Shown: positions 9,516-49,482 of the stretch, piece by piece
How the letters are laid out: every line of letters begins with the position of its first letter
Position numbering within the stretch: the stretch's first letter is position 1
Assembly: GCF_021245725.1 (NCBI RefSeq)
Contig: NZ_JAJGSX010000003.1
Span: 1-64,000, forward strand
Direction: 5' to 3'
DNA length: 64,000 bases
Source of the DNA: Pseudonocardia sp. TRM90224
GTDB taxonomy: Bacteria > Actinomycetota > Actinomycetes > Mycobacteriales > Pseudonocardiaceae
The notes under the pieces: generated by a model
Seen by the model: only the letters and a program-made list of their open reading frames with translations
What the model was told of the DNA's origin: nothing
The model's database searches: none
Program-made: the position numbers and the translations under genes

Positions 9516-9540
9516 GCGCTCCGCGGGTCGAGAGAGTGCC

Positions 9541-9593
9541 ATGAAAGCCACTTTCCTGGCGTCAGGTGCCAGGAAAGTGGCTTTCCTGGCGTC
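9541..9593. terminator. Family-2 double palindrome after bpa
   Basis: Two palindromic units, GAAAG-CCA-CTTTC and CAGGAAAG-TGG-CTTTCCTG, which are also inverted copies of each other, so either small hairpins or one long hairpin (GCCACTTTCCTGGC with its complement) can form. Located just after bpa and 49 bases before wzm, where it probably separates the two transcripts. Confidence 0.65.
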
Positions 9594-13610: not shown

Positions 13611-13664
13611 CAGCAAAGCCACTTTCCGGCCCTCACAGGGCAGGAAAGTGGCTTTCCTGCCCTC
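13611..13664. repeat. Family-2 double palindrome
   Basis: Two units (AAAG-CCA-CTTT and CAGGAAAG-TGG-CTTTCCTG) in inverted arrangement between the start of the GtrA gene (13519) and the end of the DUF1707 gene (13680), both on the minus strand. It lies 16 bases after the DUF1707 stop, fitting a terminator. Confidence 0.65.
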
Positions 13665-43646: not shown

Positions 43647-44762
43647 GTGACGGAGACGCCTTCGACGGTGGGGGACGGCGCGGTCGGTGCGCTGGGGATG
43701 ACGGTTCCGGTGGTGCAAGCGCCGATCGGCGGAGCGGCGACGCCGCAGCTCGCCGCGGCGGTCAGCGGAGCGGGCGGGCTCGGGATGCTCGCGCTCTCGT
43801 GGTCGGACCCGGCGCAGATCCGCAGTGCGATCGAGCGGACGGGCGCGCTGACGTCCCGGACGTTCGGTGCGAACCTCGTGCTCGACCGTCCGCAGTTCGA
43901 GCGGCTGGAGCTCTGCCTCGCGGCCGGGGTGCGGGTGATCTCGACGTTCTGGGGCGACCCGGCGCCGTACTCCGCACCGATCCACGCCGCCGGTGCGCTG
44001 CACCTGCACACGGTCGCGTCGGCCGCCGAGGCGCGCCGGGCGGTCGCCGCAGGCGTCGATGTCGTCGTCGCGCAGGGCTGGGAGGCGGGCGGGCACGTCT
44101 GGGGTGAGGTCGGCACGTTGGCGCTGGTCCCCGCGGTGGTCGACGCCGTCCACCCGGTGCCGGTGATCGCGGCAGGCGGGATCGCGGATCGCCGCGGGCT
44201 CGCCGCCGTGCTCGCGCTCGGCGCGGTCGCGGGCTGGATCGGCACCCGCTTCCTGCTCGCGGAGGAGTCGGGCGCCCATCCCGGCTACCGCGCCGCCGTG
44301 GCGGCGGCTGCCGAGACGGACACCCTGCTCAGCGAGCTGTTCGACGGCGGGTGGCCGGACGCGCCGCACCGCACGCTGCGCAACAGCACCGTCCGCGAAT
44401 GGCTCGCGGCCGGGTCCCCGCCTCCCGGATCGCGGCCGGGCGAGGGCGAGCAGGTCGCCGTGCGCAGGGGCGAGCCGCAGCTGCGCTACAGCAGCGACAT
44501 CCCGACCACGGGCGTCGAGGGCGACGTCGAGGCGATGGTGCACTACGCCGGCCAGGGAGTGGGGCTGGTCCGCGACGTGAAGCCGGCCGCCGAGATCGTC
44601 CGCGAGCTGGTGGGGGGGCGCCGGCTCCGGTCGGTGACGCTCCCGCGCCACGAGGGCAGGAAAGCCACTTTCAGGCCCTGTGGGGGCAGGAAGGTGGCTT
44701 TCCTGCCCTCCCCGCGGCCGCGCCCGGTCCTGCCGTCCTCGCTTCTAGGTGAGTCTGGCTAG
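43647..44762 (+). CDS. Nitronate monooxygenase / NPD-like flavoprotein
   Basis: FMN-dependent TIM-barrel enzyme of the 2-nitropropane dioxygenase family, 371 residues. The N-terminus MTVPVVQAPIGGAATPQLAAAVSGAGGLGML, the middle GVDVVVAQGWEAGGHVWG and PVPVIAAGGIADRRGLAAVLALGAVAGWIGTRFL are family landmarks for FMN binding. It may detoxify nitronates or act as a related oxidoreductase. GTG 43647 with CACTCT 7 bases upstream suggests a leaderless start. The last 38 codons run through a family-2 repeat (44652-44710), so the native C-terminus seems to have been replaced by repeat-encoded residues such as GRKVAFLPS; its end overlaps the facing GT1 gene by 18 bases. Confidence 0.88.
   Translation: MTETPSTVGDGAVGALGMTVPVVQAPIGGAATPQLAAAVSGAGGLGMLALSWSDPAQIRSAIERTGALTSRTFGANLVLDRPQFERLELCLAAGVRVISTFWGDPAPYSAPIHAAGALHLHTVASAAEARRAVAAGVDVVVAQGWEAGGHVWGEVGTLALVPAVVDAVHPVPVIAAGGIADRRGLAAVLALGAVAGWIGTRFLLAEESGAHPGYRAAVAAAAETDTLLSELFDGGWPDAPHRTLRNSTVREWLAAGSPPPGSRPGEGEQVAVRRGEPQLRYSSDIPTTGVEGDVEAMVHYAGQGVGLVRDVKPAAEIVRELVGGRRLRSVTLPRHEGRKATFRPCGGRKVAFLPSPRPRPVLPSSLLGESG
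44652..44710. repeat. Family-2 double palindrome inside the 3' end of a coding region
   Basis: GCAGGAAAG-CCA-CTTTC and GGCAGGAAGGTGGCTTTCCTGCC units, arranged as at the other sites. Unlike the other copies it is read through by the nitronate monooxygenase frame. It lies 34 bases from the facing glycosyltransferase stop, so the terminator position between convergent genes is kept. Confidence 0.7.
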
Positions 44763-46683: not shown

Positions 46684-47697
46684 TTACGCGTCCAGCCGGA
46701 TCGGCATCAGCAGCGAGACCGAGCGCGGCGAGCGGATGACCAGCGGGGCGAGCGGCCCGTCGAGCTCCAGCTGCAGCTGACCGGGCCCGCCCGCGTCGAA
46801 AGCTTCGAGGAGGAACTCGCGGTTCACCCCGACGCCGGCCGCGGCGGGCCGGCCCTGCTCGTCGAGCGCGAGCACCTCGATGCGGGAGCCGTCGGGCTCG
46901 TCGCGAACCTGGTGGGCGGGCGCCGTCCGCAATGCCGTCACATCGACGAGAATCCCGTCGCGGGCCGCGGGCAGCAGCGGCCGGTAGTCGGGGAACGCGT
47001 CGGGCAGCAGCGGCCCGGCGACGTCCCCGCTGGTCAGCGACTCGCCGTCGACGGTGATGGGCACGTCGCCGCTCGCCGTGGCGATCTCGTCGAGCAGGGG
47101 CGCCGGGACGACCACCCGCACCGGATCGGCCGGCTCAGCGAGCGTGACCTCGGCGAGCGCGAGCCGGTACCGGTCGGTCGCAACGAGCGTGAGCATCGAA
47201 CCGTCGACCTCGAGCAGCACCCCCGAGAGCACCGGCAGGTCGGGATCGGCGCCGACGGCGAACCGGACCGCGCGCAAGGCGTCGGAGAGCGCGGCGGCGG
47301 GCACGGTGAAGGTGGTTGCGGACATGGCGGGCTCCTCGGGGCTCAGCAGTGACGTGACCGAGGAGAGCGCGCGGCGGGCGTCGGCGAGCCGCTGTTCGAG
47401 GCTGCGCACGTGCGCGTCGAGCAGGACGTCGACGTGCGCGGGGTCGGCGCGGTGCGCCAGCACCTCCCGGATGCCGGCGACCGGCATCCCGACCCTGCGC
47501 AGCACCGCGACCAGCTTCGCGACCGCGAGCTGCTCGGGCGCGTACGACCGGTACCCGGTGTCCGGGTCGACGCGGGCCGGGCGCAGCACGCCCGCGCCGT
47601 CGTAGAACCGCAGCGCGCTGACCGTCAGCCCCGACTCCCGCGACATCGCCCCGATGCCCCGCAAGCTCTCCACCCCACGACCCTCGGGCCTCGACAT
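46684..47697 (-). CDS. MerR-type regulator fused to a DNA polymerase III beta-clamp fragment
   Basis: Chimeric protein of 337 residues. Residues about 15-80 form a MerR winged helix (GAMSRESGLTVSALRFYDGAGVLRPARVDPDTGYRSYAPEQL), followed by a coiled-coil helix to about 120. From MSATTFTVPAAALSDALRAV onward the protein resembles clamp domain 2 (DLPVLSGVLLEVDGSMLTLVATDRYRLALAEV, then AFPDYRPLLP) and a shortened domain 3 (NREFLLEAFDAG through SLLMPIRL, the usual DnaN end). Clamp domain 1 is absent and its place is taken by the HTH. MerR proteins normally sense a ligand with their C-terminal half, so the clamp part may be a sensor. It ends 4 bases from the HAD stop. Confidence 0.85.
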   Translation of the reverse strand: MSRPEGRGVESLRGIGAMSRESGLTVSALRFYDGAGVLRPARVDPDTGYRSYAPEQLAVAKLVAVLRRVGMPVAGIREVLAHRADPAHVDVLLDAHVRSLEQRLADARRALSSVTSLLSPEEPAMSATTFTVPAAALSDALRAVRFAVGADPDLPVLSGVLLEVDGSMLTLVATDRYRLALAEVTLAEPADPVRVVVPAPLLDEIATASGDVPITVDGESLTSGDVAGPLLPDAFPDYRPLLPAARDGILVDVTALRTAPAHQVRDEPDGSRIEVLALDEQGRPAAAGVGVNREFLLEAFDAGGPGQLQLELDGPLAPLVIRSPRSVSLLMPIRLDA

Positions 47698-47740
47698 GGT
47701 CGAGAGTCAACCGAGCCGGTTGCGGGTGGGTGGCTGGGAG

Positions 47741-47795
47741 TGCCAGGAAAGTGGCTTTCCTGTCCTGTGGTGCCAGGAAAGTGGCTTTCCTGGCA
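47741..47795. repeat. Family-2 palindromes in direct tandem
   Basis: Two copies of GCCAGGAAAGTGGCTTTCCTG in the same orientation, 29 bases apart, each a perfect CAGGAAAG/CTTTCCTG hairpin. At the other complete sites the first unit reads CCA instead of TGG. Located between the MerR-clamp start and the DUF350 stop. Confidence 0.7.
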
Positions 47796-47841: not shown

Positions 47842-48279
47842 CTACAGGATCGCAACCGCGACCACGAGACCGAGCGCCAGGTGCGCGGCCGACACCACGA
47901 AGGCCTGCGGGCGGACGGTGTCGGCGGTGAGGACGGTGCCGATGTCGATCCCGGTGACCCACTCCAGCAGCCGCACGCCGCCGACCTGCGCGATGATCCC
48001 GACCAGCCCGAAGATCAGCGAGGCCAGCACGCCCTCCAGCAGCGCGCCGGACGACGAGTAGATCGCCGTCACGACGATGAACGCCATGCTGATCATCCCG
48101 GCGGCGGTGACGATCACCGCGTTCGGCAGGCCTTCCTTGACCATGCGGTTGAGCTTGCCCGGCGTCGTCAGGTCGACGGCGAAGAAGCCGAGCAGCATGA
48201 GCAGCACGCCGAGCACGGCGTAGAGCAGGATCGCGCCGATACCGCGGCCGATCACGGCGAAGAAGCTCGGGTCGATCAC
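47842..48279 (-). CDS. DUF350-family membrane protein
   Basis: Small integral membrane protein of the DUF350 family, 145 residues, with four helices: IGAILLYAVLGVLLMLLGFFAVDLTTPG, AVIVTAAGMISMAFIVVTAIY, GVLASLIFGLVGIIAQVGGVRLLEWV and FVVSAAHLALGLVVAVAI. The first helix's D-L-T-T-P-G-K-L and the GG between helices are family features. In enterobacteria the DUF350 protein YjfL is encoded with an ATP-grasp YjfC and a DUF1190 protein YjfM, the same trio found here. The role is unknown. Last gene of the minus-strand trio. Confidence 0.88.
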   Translation of the reverse strand: MIDPSFFAVIGRGIGAILLYAVLGVLLMLLGFFAVDLTTPGKLNRMVKEGLPNAVIVTAAGMISMAFIVVTAIYSSSGALLEGVLASLIFGLVGIIAQVGGVRLLEWVTGIDIGTVLTADTVRPQAFVVSAAHLALGLVVAVAIL

Positions 48280-48315
48280 GTAGTCCTCCAGTGCGCGGGG
48301 AGCTGTACTGCTTGT

Positions 48316-49482
48316 TCAGGTCTGTGGGATGCGGTGCGGTACGAAGGCTGCGCCGTCGTCGGTCACGAGCCCGACGGTCTCGCGGATGCCGAGGCCGGCG
48401 GAGGTGTCGCCGACGATCCACGCGCCCAGCGCGGGACGGTATCCGTCGAAGACGGGCAGCGGGTCGAAGAGCTGGTAGACGTACCCTTCCTCGCCGTAGA
48501 CGCCACCCGTCTGGTGTTCCATGCCGGGCGCGACGATCGCGATGTTGGCGCCCTCCCGGCCCAGCCGCGGCTTGCGGACGTACTCGGTGAGCATCCCGGG
48601 CTGGTCCAGGTAGGCCGGCAGCAGGTTGGGGTGGCCGGGGTACATCTCCCACAGCACGGCGAGCAGCGCCTTGTTGGAGAGCAGCGTCTTCCACAGCGGC
48701 TCGATCCACAGCGTCTCGGGGAGGCTGCGCAGCACGTGCTTGCCGAAGTCGTCGCTGAGCACCCACTCCCACGGGTAGAGCTTGAAGATCGCCGCCATCT
48801 GCGATTCCTCGAGGTCGACGAAGCGGTCGAGCGCCGCGTCCCACCCGATGTCCTCGATCGCGAGCCCAACGGTGTCGAGCCCGGCCTCCGCCGCGGTCTC
48901 CTGCAGGTAGCCGACGGTGACGTGGTCCTCGCCCGTCGAGTCGCCGCTCGACCAGGTGAAGTAGACCTCGCTGCTCGGCAACCGGTCCTTGATCAGGCCC
49001 CACCGCTCGACGAGCTGCTCGTGCAGCGAGTTCCACTGGTCGTCGTCGGGGTGGGTGTCCTTCAGCCAGTTCCACTGCAGGATCGACGCTTCCAGCAGCG
49101 TCGTCGGCGTGTCGGCGTTGTACTCCAGCAGCTTCGCCGGCCCGCCGCCGTCGTAGCGGATGTCGAACCGGCCGTACACGTGCGGGTCGTTGCGCTTCCA
49201 CGACGCCGCGACGGCCTCCCACGAGTGCTCGGGCAGCGCGAAGTCGCGGAACCGCTCGGCCGTGACCACGTGGTCGACGGCTTCGAGGCACATCGAGTGG
49301 ATGACCTCGACGTCCGCTTCGAGCGAGAGCACCTCGTCCATCGAGAAGACGTAGTGCACCGACTCGTCCCAGTACGGCCGGGGCGAGCCGCCCTCGCCGC
49401 GCCCGGGTGTCCCGTACACCATGCCCTGCTCGCGGACCTTGGTCTCCCAGTCGGGGCGGGGTGCGCCCGTGTGGCGTTCCAT
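48316..49482 (-). CDS. Glutathionylspermidine-synthase-family ATP-grasp ligase (YgiC/YjfC-like)
   Basis: ATP-dependent C-N ligase family protein, 388 residues (PF03738). Typical stretches are PYWDESVHYVFSMDEVLSLE, GRFDIRYDGGGPAKLLEYNADTPTTLLEASILQWNW, DRFVDLEESQMAAIFKLYPWEW, IEPLWKTLLSNKALLAVLWEMYPGHPNLLPAYL, RKPRLGREGANI and QTGGVYGEEGYVYQLFDPLP. It lacks the amidase domain of E. coli GspS, like YgiC and YjfC. The acceptor is unknown; without glutathione in actinobacteria, another peptide or amine is likely. It overlaps nothing and is 36 bases upstream of DUF350 and 12 downstream of the membrane-anchored partner. Confidence 0.92.
   Translation of the reverse strand: MERHTGAPRPDWETKVREQGMVYGTPGRGEGGSPRPYWDESVHYVFSMDEVLSLEADVEVIHSMCLEAVDHVVTAERFRDFALPEHSWEAVAASWKRNDPHVYGRFDIRYDGGGPAKLLEYNADTPTTLLEASILQWNWLKDTHPDDDQWNSLHEQLVERWGLIKDRLPSSEVYFTWSSGDSTGEDHVTVGYLQETAAEAGLDTVGLAIEDIGWDAALDRFVDLEESQMAAIFKLYPWEWVLSDDFGKHVLRSLPETLWIEPLWKTLLSNKALLAVLWEMYPGHPNLLPAYLDQPGMLTEYVRKPRLGREGANIAIVAPGMEHQTGGVYGEEGYVYQLFDPLPVFDGYRPALGAWIVGDTSAGLGIRETVGLVTDDGAAFVPHRIPQT

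Follow-up and report, generated by a model that had tools for sequence, protein, structure and literature searches.

A MerR regulator fused to two domains of the replication sliding clamp: a candidate self-controlled sensor of clamp ligands in actinobacteria

Introduction

Why would a MerR-type transcription regulator carry a piece of the replication sliding clamp, DnaN, as its C-terminal half? The question is raised by a gene in a 64,000-nucleotide stretch of DNA from Pseudonocardia sp. TRM90224 (contig NZ_JAJGSX010000003.1, positions 1 to 64,000; the window). MerR dimers sit on a dyad in an over-long promoter spacer and twist the DNA once a ligand is bound by the C-terminal domain, and the pocket of the clamp is the target of griselimycin-type antibiotics. 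We tentatively propose, with confidence a little short of even, that the gene is a one-gene switch whose product would sense clamp ligands, most likely antibiotics, and switch on no gene but its own; a free decoy fragment of the clamp is predicted to accompany it. This proposal is the simplest joining of five observations: the clamp pocket is conserved, domain 1 is lost, a single candidate operator lies at the gene itself, a predicted second translation start lies within the gene, and the occurrence of the gene is patchy.

The fusion protein

The fusion of a MerR head to DnaN domains 2 and 3 without domain 1 is confirmed. The earlier note on this DNA, made from the letters alone, had described a MerR helix-turn-helix (HTH) and coiled coil joined to domain 2 and a shortened domain 3, and PF13411, TIGR00663 and a fit to the clamp bear this out. 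The PF13411 match scores 52.6 bits against a cut-off of 21.6, PF02767 matches residues 132–208, and the modeled clamp part is predicted to fit DnaN from residue 124 onward. The Foldseek template-modeling score of the whole model is about 0.5, which is low since the MerR part is included. With domains 2 and 3 only, the protein is not a full DnaN, and its TIGR00663 score is 64.9 bits against a cut-off of 137.65.

A longer, mechanical open reading frame (ORF) runs from an ATG at 47697 (46684–47697, minus strand, 337 residues). The GTG at 47673 is taken as the start because the conserved promoter-like site ends just upstream of it, VES, VEN or MES opens most homologues, and the database copy, P0001, has 329 residues.

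A total of 2056 proteins match the fusion at E ≤ 1e-3 (7997 candidates scored). All 120 among the matches listed carry MerR_1 and DNA_pol3_beta_2, and their source names, where given, are MerR regulator or DNA polymerase III subunit beta. The join is already known to annotation pipelines; no paper on a MerR-DnaN fusion was found in the open-licence PMC literature, and PMC10421592 does not contain MerR as a whole word. The only ordinary dnaN of the host genome lies on the contig of the fusion gene, and a PF02767 search of that genome returned this full dnaN and the fusion gene, with no second full-length DnaN.

The clamp pocket and the ring interface

An alignment was made of 79 window-type (type I) members, five divergent (type II) members, 30 actinobacterial DnaNs and E. 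coli DnaN, with the pocket residues listed in part of a review (PMC11139829). Type II is a second MerR-clamp subfamily (loci L007, L008, L009, L010 and L012) in which the residues of pocket subsite II and the internal start are lost.

As read from the alignment, the window protein has the peptide and griselimycin pocket residues, bar a P at 246. Beyond the two blocks given in Table 1, type I members have P242 (77/79), N320 (70/79) and F or Y at 323 (78/79). Mean column entropy in type I is 0.69 over 18 pocket positions and 1.73 over 211 others (one-sided P 1.3e-6). Both pocket subsites are better conserved than the remaining fold and mostly hold the residues of actinobacterial DnaNs. The check proposed in the earlier note, a structure prediction set against DnaN with inspection of the pocket, thus had a positive outcome: the predicted structure is that of a clamp, and pocket residues are retained across homologues.

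The ring-forming interface is different. At positions 272 and 273, L and V occur in 30/30 DnaNs, whereas fusions have V, T or A and R or P, and the window copy has A and H. Positions 302–311 are gapped in more than 30% of fusion members. To judge from the aligned residues, then, the fusions lack domain 1 and have altered residues at the ring interface, but they preserve the pocket.

The promoter-like site and its candidate operator

Genomic loci were collected for the best 80 of 561 homologues, with flanks of up to 10 kb. The order of elements upstream of type I genes is TTGAC[CT], a dyad resembling CTCGACCNNGTCGAG within a 19-bp spacer, NAN3T, and a GTG or ATG start. The promoter parser required T[TG]GAC[CT][CT]T[CTG], i.e., the -35-like part only. 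The candidate dyad, the 19-bp spacing and the -10-like box are found in 79/79 parsed type I genes, and also in the four of the 80 loci that failed the parser (L038, L042, L045 and L109), all of which have the promoter-like site. The A at position 2 and the T at position 6 of the -10-like box, neither required by the parser, are present in 79/79. In the final parse, the start codon was the in-frame start nearest to 38 nt from the -35 box, so that its tight spacing is partly by choice; an earlier parse taking the first start codon gave 29–39 nt. The five type II genes have a TTGACCTTC site, the spacer likewise being 19 bp.

Does the operator occur elsewhere? The genome of the window has one exact site, and its two matches at two mismatches equal the two given by a reversed control. 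Two patterns were used more widely: a strict one and a looser one fitted to Streptomyces variants. With one mismatch allowed, each of eight carrier genomes has a single match to the strict pattern, adjoining the fusion gene, and 28 non-carrier genomes have none. The looser pattern, in 30 further carriers (of 62), lies at the fusion gene in 30/30, 26 of them exact; the same 30 genomes hold 10 stray one-mismatch sites, compared with 13 for the reversed control. In the 28 non-carriers, the looser pattern gave eight stray one-mismatch sites, none exact, compared with four for the reversed control. The fusion protein thus appears to regulate only its own gene. A regulon beyond the fusion gene itself was considered and rejected, as only the operator in its own promoter stands above chance in the genomes searched.

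A predicted internal start at the junction

Where the MerR part meets the clamp part, the gene has a Shine-Dalgarno (SD)-like run followed by an in-frame start (Table 1). Such an in-frame SD with ATG or GTG occurs at the junction in 69/79 type I genes, and in 31/2148 other zones of the same genes (zones of 12 codons; widening to 45 codons gives 68/78). The runs among the 69 are AGGGAG (31), GAGGAG (17), AAGGAG (6), CAGGAG (4) and others (11), with an SD-to-start gap of 6 nt in 39/69. Different residue pairs at the junction yield similar purine runs, and the AGG codon, which serves for 67 of 3033 arginines elsewhere, serves for 36 of the 47 at the SD run. The signal is present in 41/41 Streptomyces, 6/6 Pseudonocardia and 7/11 Micromonospora genes, and in 16 of 21 members of less than 60% identity.

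As a positive control, MerR-TipAS genes (loci L181–L210) were parsed with a 36-codon zone: 14/17 have an internal SD and start, compared with only 1/48 in later zones. This signature matches the two TipA isoforms described in an excerpt of PMC7762955.

A proposed mechanism and its relation to known systems

The steps envisaged below are modeled on MerR and TipA biology. A dimer of the MerR-clamp protein would bind the dyad between the -35 and -10 boxes. A ligand lodged in the clamp pocket would lead to realignment of the over-long promoter and firing of the protein's own gene. One mRNA would then give two products: the long regulator, from the leaderless GTG, and a short free clamp fragment, from the internal start, which would soak up the ligand as a decoy. 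On analogy with TipA, it is conceivable, if rather doubtful, that the whole is a self-contained resistance switch, the ringless clamp piece being both sensor and sponge, in which clamp antibiotics fire the sole promoter and an excess of decoy results.

TipA of Streptomyces lividans, according to the same excerpt of PMC7762955, is autoregulated, and a second start codon gives a free ligand domain. The fusion likewise has a MerR HTH and coiled coil, a putative C-terminal ligand domain, a candidate operator of its own and a predicted internal start; this organization, TipA-like at the level of sequence, was not seen in the earlier note. The two differ in that the putative ligand domain here is not TipAS but a piece of DnaN, which is an antibiotic target in its own right: PF07739 matches neither the fusion protein, at E up to 1, nor the rest of its genome. 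They also differ in that the fusion gene has a leaderless-looking start and no visible target beyond its own promoter.

GriR and MypR are described, in part of PMC10817943, as extra DnaN genes in the griselimycin and mycoplanecin clusters. The fusion resembles them in being an extra clamp-derived protein and differs in being a fragment without domain 1, attached to a regulator, not a second full-length DnaN. No cluster of the griselimycin or mycoplanecin type was noticed among the near neighbors of the fusion gene. The idea, put forward in the earlier note, that a fragment of a drug target serves as the sensor is upheld in part: the predicted clamp structure, the pocket retained despite loss of domain 1 and changes at the ring interface, and the TipA-like candidate operator and internal start lend it indirect support; a link to a clamp-antibiotic cluster did not emerge from the near neighbors. 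Compared with DnaN itself, the fusion has the fold of domains 2 and 3 and the peptide pocket but no domain 1, an altered dimer interface and a score below the TIGR00663 cut-off. Its MerR head is like those of BmrR, EcmrR and BrlR-type regulators (PDB sequence matches). Their C-terminal effector domains have a fold different from that of the clamp.

If the proposal is true, bacteria have turned a drug target into a sensor for the drug and given it a decoy of its own. It would be a route of resistance to clamp antibiotics (griselimycins, mycoplanecins) that does not rely on a second DnaN, and roughly one in four of the genomes sampled from the genus inferred to be Streptomyces would have it. It would also offer a ready-made reporter for new clamp-binding natural products.

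Alternative explanations

The alternative that survives best is that the clamp fold was co-opted for an unrelated small molecule, and that the conservation of pocket motifs is mostly structural or inherited. We hold it to be unlikely. The facts that weigh against our own proposal are given here together with those in its favor. MerR effector domains are diverse, and identity among members is lower in the clamp part than in the HTH (pairwise mean 0.49 vs. 0.71). The pocket stands out likewise in true DnaNs, with entropies of 0.31 and 1.19; because of this, pocket conservation in the fusions appears to be partly inherited, and the pocket, looser here than in DnaN, seems somewhat relaxed. Pocket residues account for only four of the eight invariant columns in type I. 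Position 246, P in the window copy, is R in 67/79 type I members, and position 272 of the ring interface is still hydrophobic (V) in 35/79. The five type II members keep subsite I without N320, Y323 and R365 of subsite II. What counts against this alternative is that type I conserves both subsites above the rest of the fold, mostly as actinobacterial DnaN residues.

The internal start must be weighed in the same way. It is missing in 10/79 type I genes and in 5/5 of type II. Synonymous codon shuffles within genes (200 shuffles) keep an SD and start in a mean of 36.5/79 and a maximum of 49, and residue and codon make-up by themselves would account for about half of the SD signal. The counts overstate independence, since the members are related and most come from Streptomyces. 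In a negative control, 5/8 parsed genes for other MerR proteins (loci L014–L031) have an internal SD and start, as does one of two parsed MerR-GyrI genes in the same zone; parsing succeeded for 8/18 other MerR loci, 17/30 TipAS loci and 2/27 GyrI-like loci, which leaves the GyrI control weak. The notion that the internal start is unique to clamp fusions was rejected, as MerR-TipAS genes and other MerR controls have it as well. Because those 5/8 MerR proteins with other C-termini carry it, the internal start is better regarded as a shared MerR feature, one that supports a TipA-like mode of action and says nothing on the ligand. Actinobacterial MerR regulators may generally yield two products, and internal starts are a possible general trick of the effector-bearing ones. 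A decoy, moreover, has to compete against the host's own clamp, which has a very similar pocket.

A second alternative, which we consider improbable, is that the clamp part detects the cell's own clamp-binding proteins or peptides (polymerases, ImuB, the clamp loader subunit delta) and so signals stress in replication or repair. The free fragment would then act as a brake on replication by tying up clamp partners or the clamp loader. Clamp-binding motifs in general dock in this pocket, and in one study tabled in PMC11139829 delta binds the monomeric clamp more tightly than the dimeric one. The fusion gene also shares a contig with dnaN, about 101 kb away. On the other hand, the sole operator above chance is that of the gene's own promoter, so that no repair or replication gene appears to be controlled, and occurrence is patchy even within one genus (3/16), unlike that of a core stress circuit.

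Weakest is the explanation that this is an autoregulated MerR protein with a meaningless internal start, the SD and ATG having arisen incidentally from a Glu-rich helix end or been left over from gene fusion: GAGGAG can arise from Glu-Glu codons alone, and the shuffles and the other MerR proteins lend it something, but the arginine codon bias, the 69 observed against at most 49 shuffled, the similar purine runs from different residue pairs and the same signature in MerR-TipAS genes make it very improbable.

Distribution

The fusion gene is patchy in actinobacteria. Type I was found in 4/296 genomes across the phylum (E ≤ 1e-40), in 5/249 genomes of the host family (E ≤ 1e-80) and in 3/16 of the host genus; the other 11 of 16 matches in the family, with E from 6e-31 to 2e-32, are type II-looking. 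In the genus inferred to be Streptomyces, 62/246 genomes have it at E ≤ 1e-40, two of the matches being partial (G617, G634), and there are three weaker matches besides. Named carriers among the best 80 of 561 include Pseudonocardia, Blastococcus, Micromonospora, Actinoplanes, Kitasatospora, Nocardioides and Kineosporia, and the plasmid collection adds records from Streptomyces and Embleya.

Two copies have broken heads. In L042, the open frame begins after the HTH; in L006 (genome G023), left out of the counts, the HTH is in a different frame from the rest and the operator is exact. They are either decaying copies or sequencing errors. Separately, a second full-length DnaN above the TIGR00663 cut-off is present in 6/40 class-level genomes (G023, G107, G551, G557, G574 and G575).

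Features and neighbors of the locus

Table 1. Features of the MerR-clamp fusion gene in the window; residues are numbered in the 337-residue frame.
Feature	Position	Strand	Remarks
-35-like box TTGACT	47705..47710	-	TTGAC[CT] in 78/79 parsed type I, TGGACC in 1
Candidate operator dyad CTCGACCATGTCGAG	47690..47704	-	within 19-bp spacer; mean 5.96/7 arm pairs complementary, 79 members
-10-like box GAGGGT	47680..47685	-	19 bp from -35 box; 6 nt ahead of GTG start, leaderless-looking
MerR-clamp fusion gene, probable coding sequence	46684..47673	-	GTG start, 329 residues + stop
MerR HTH domain, residues 15–81	47455..47655	-	PF13411 E 5e-14
Long dimerization helix/coiled coil, ~residues 82–118	47344..47454	-	helix 86–118; PF09278 61–112
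Internal SD-like GAGGAG	47332..47337	-	SD + in-frame start at junction
Internal start ATG (Met125)	47323..47325	-	6 nt past SD; predicted free clamp fragment 46684–47325, 213 residues
DnaN domain 2, residues 125–246	46960..47325	-	TIGR00663 126–246; clamp fit
Pocket block TDRYRL (E. coli 172–177)	47161..47178	-	T172, R at 174 and R176 each 79/79
Shortened DnaN domain 3, residues 247–337	46687..46959	-	ends LLMPIRL; E. coli positions 302–311 missing
Pocket block MPIRL at C-terminus (E. coli 362–366)	46693..46707	-	M362 78/79, P363 79/79, R365 69/79

The earlier note had also suggested a list of co-occurring genes in homologues. A conserved operon partner was rejected: clustering of ORFs from the 80 loci gave no widely common neighbor, and the largest non-self cluster covers 16/80 loci in four genera, with a rough ORF caller that caught the fusion gene itself in 72/80. 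Among the loci listed, neighbors vary between genera. In 10 Micromonospora loci, the gene after the fusion gene is one that we take to be serS. The upstream neighbors in the window (47842–49482) encode a DUF350 protein and a glutathionylspermidine-synthase-like protein; between these and the fusion gene, several Pseudonocardia loci have short ORFs that resemble a toxin-antitoxin pair. A palindromic repeat, CCAGGAAAGTGGCTTTCCTG, often paired about 30 bp apart, lies in the window at 9540–9589, 13611–13659, 44657–44705 and 47743–47793. It has 10 matches at ≤3 mismatches (eight places, two counted on both strands) where none is expected, and two exact copies stand just upstream of the fusion gene.
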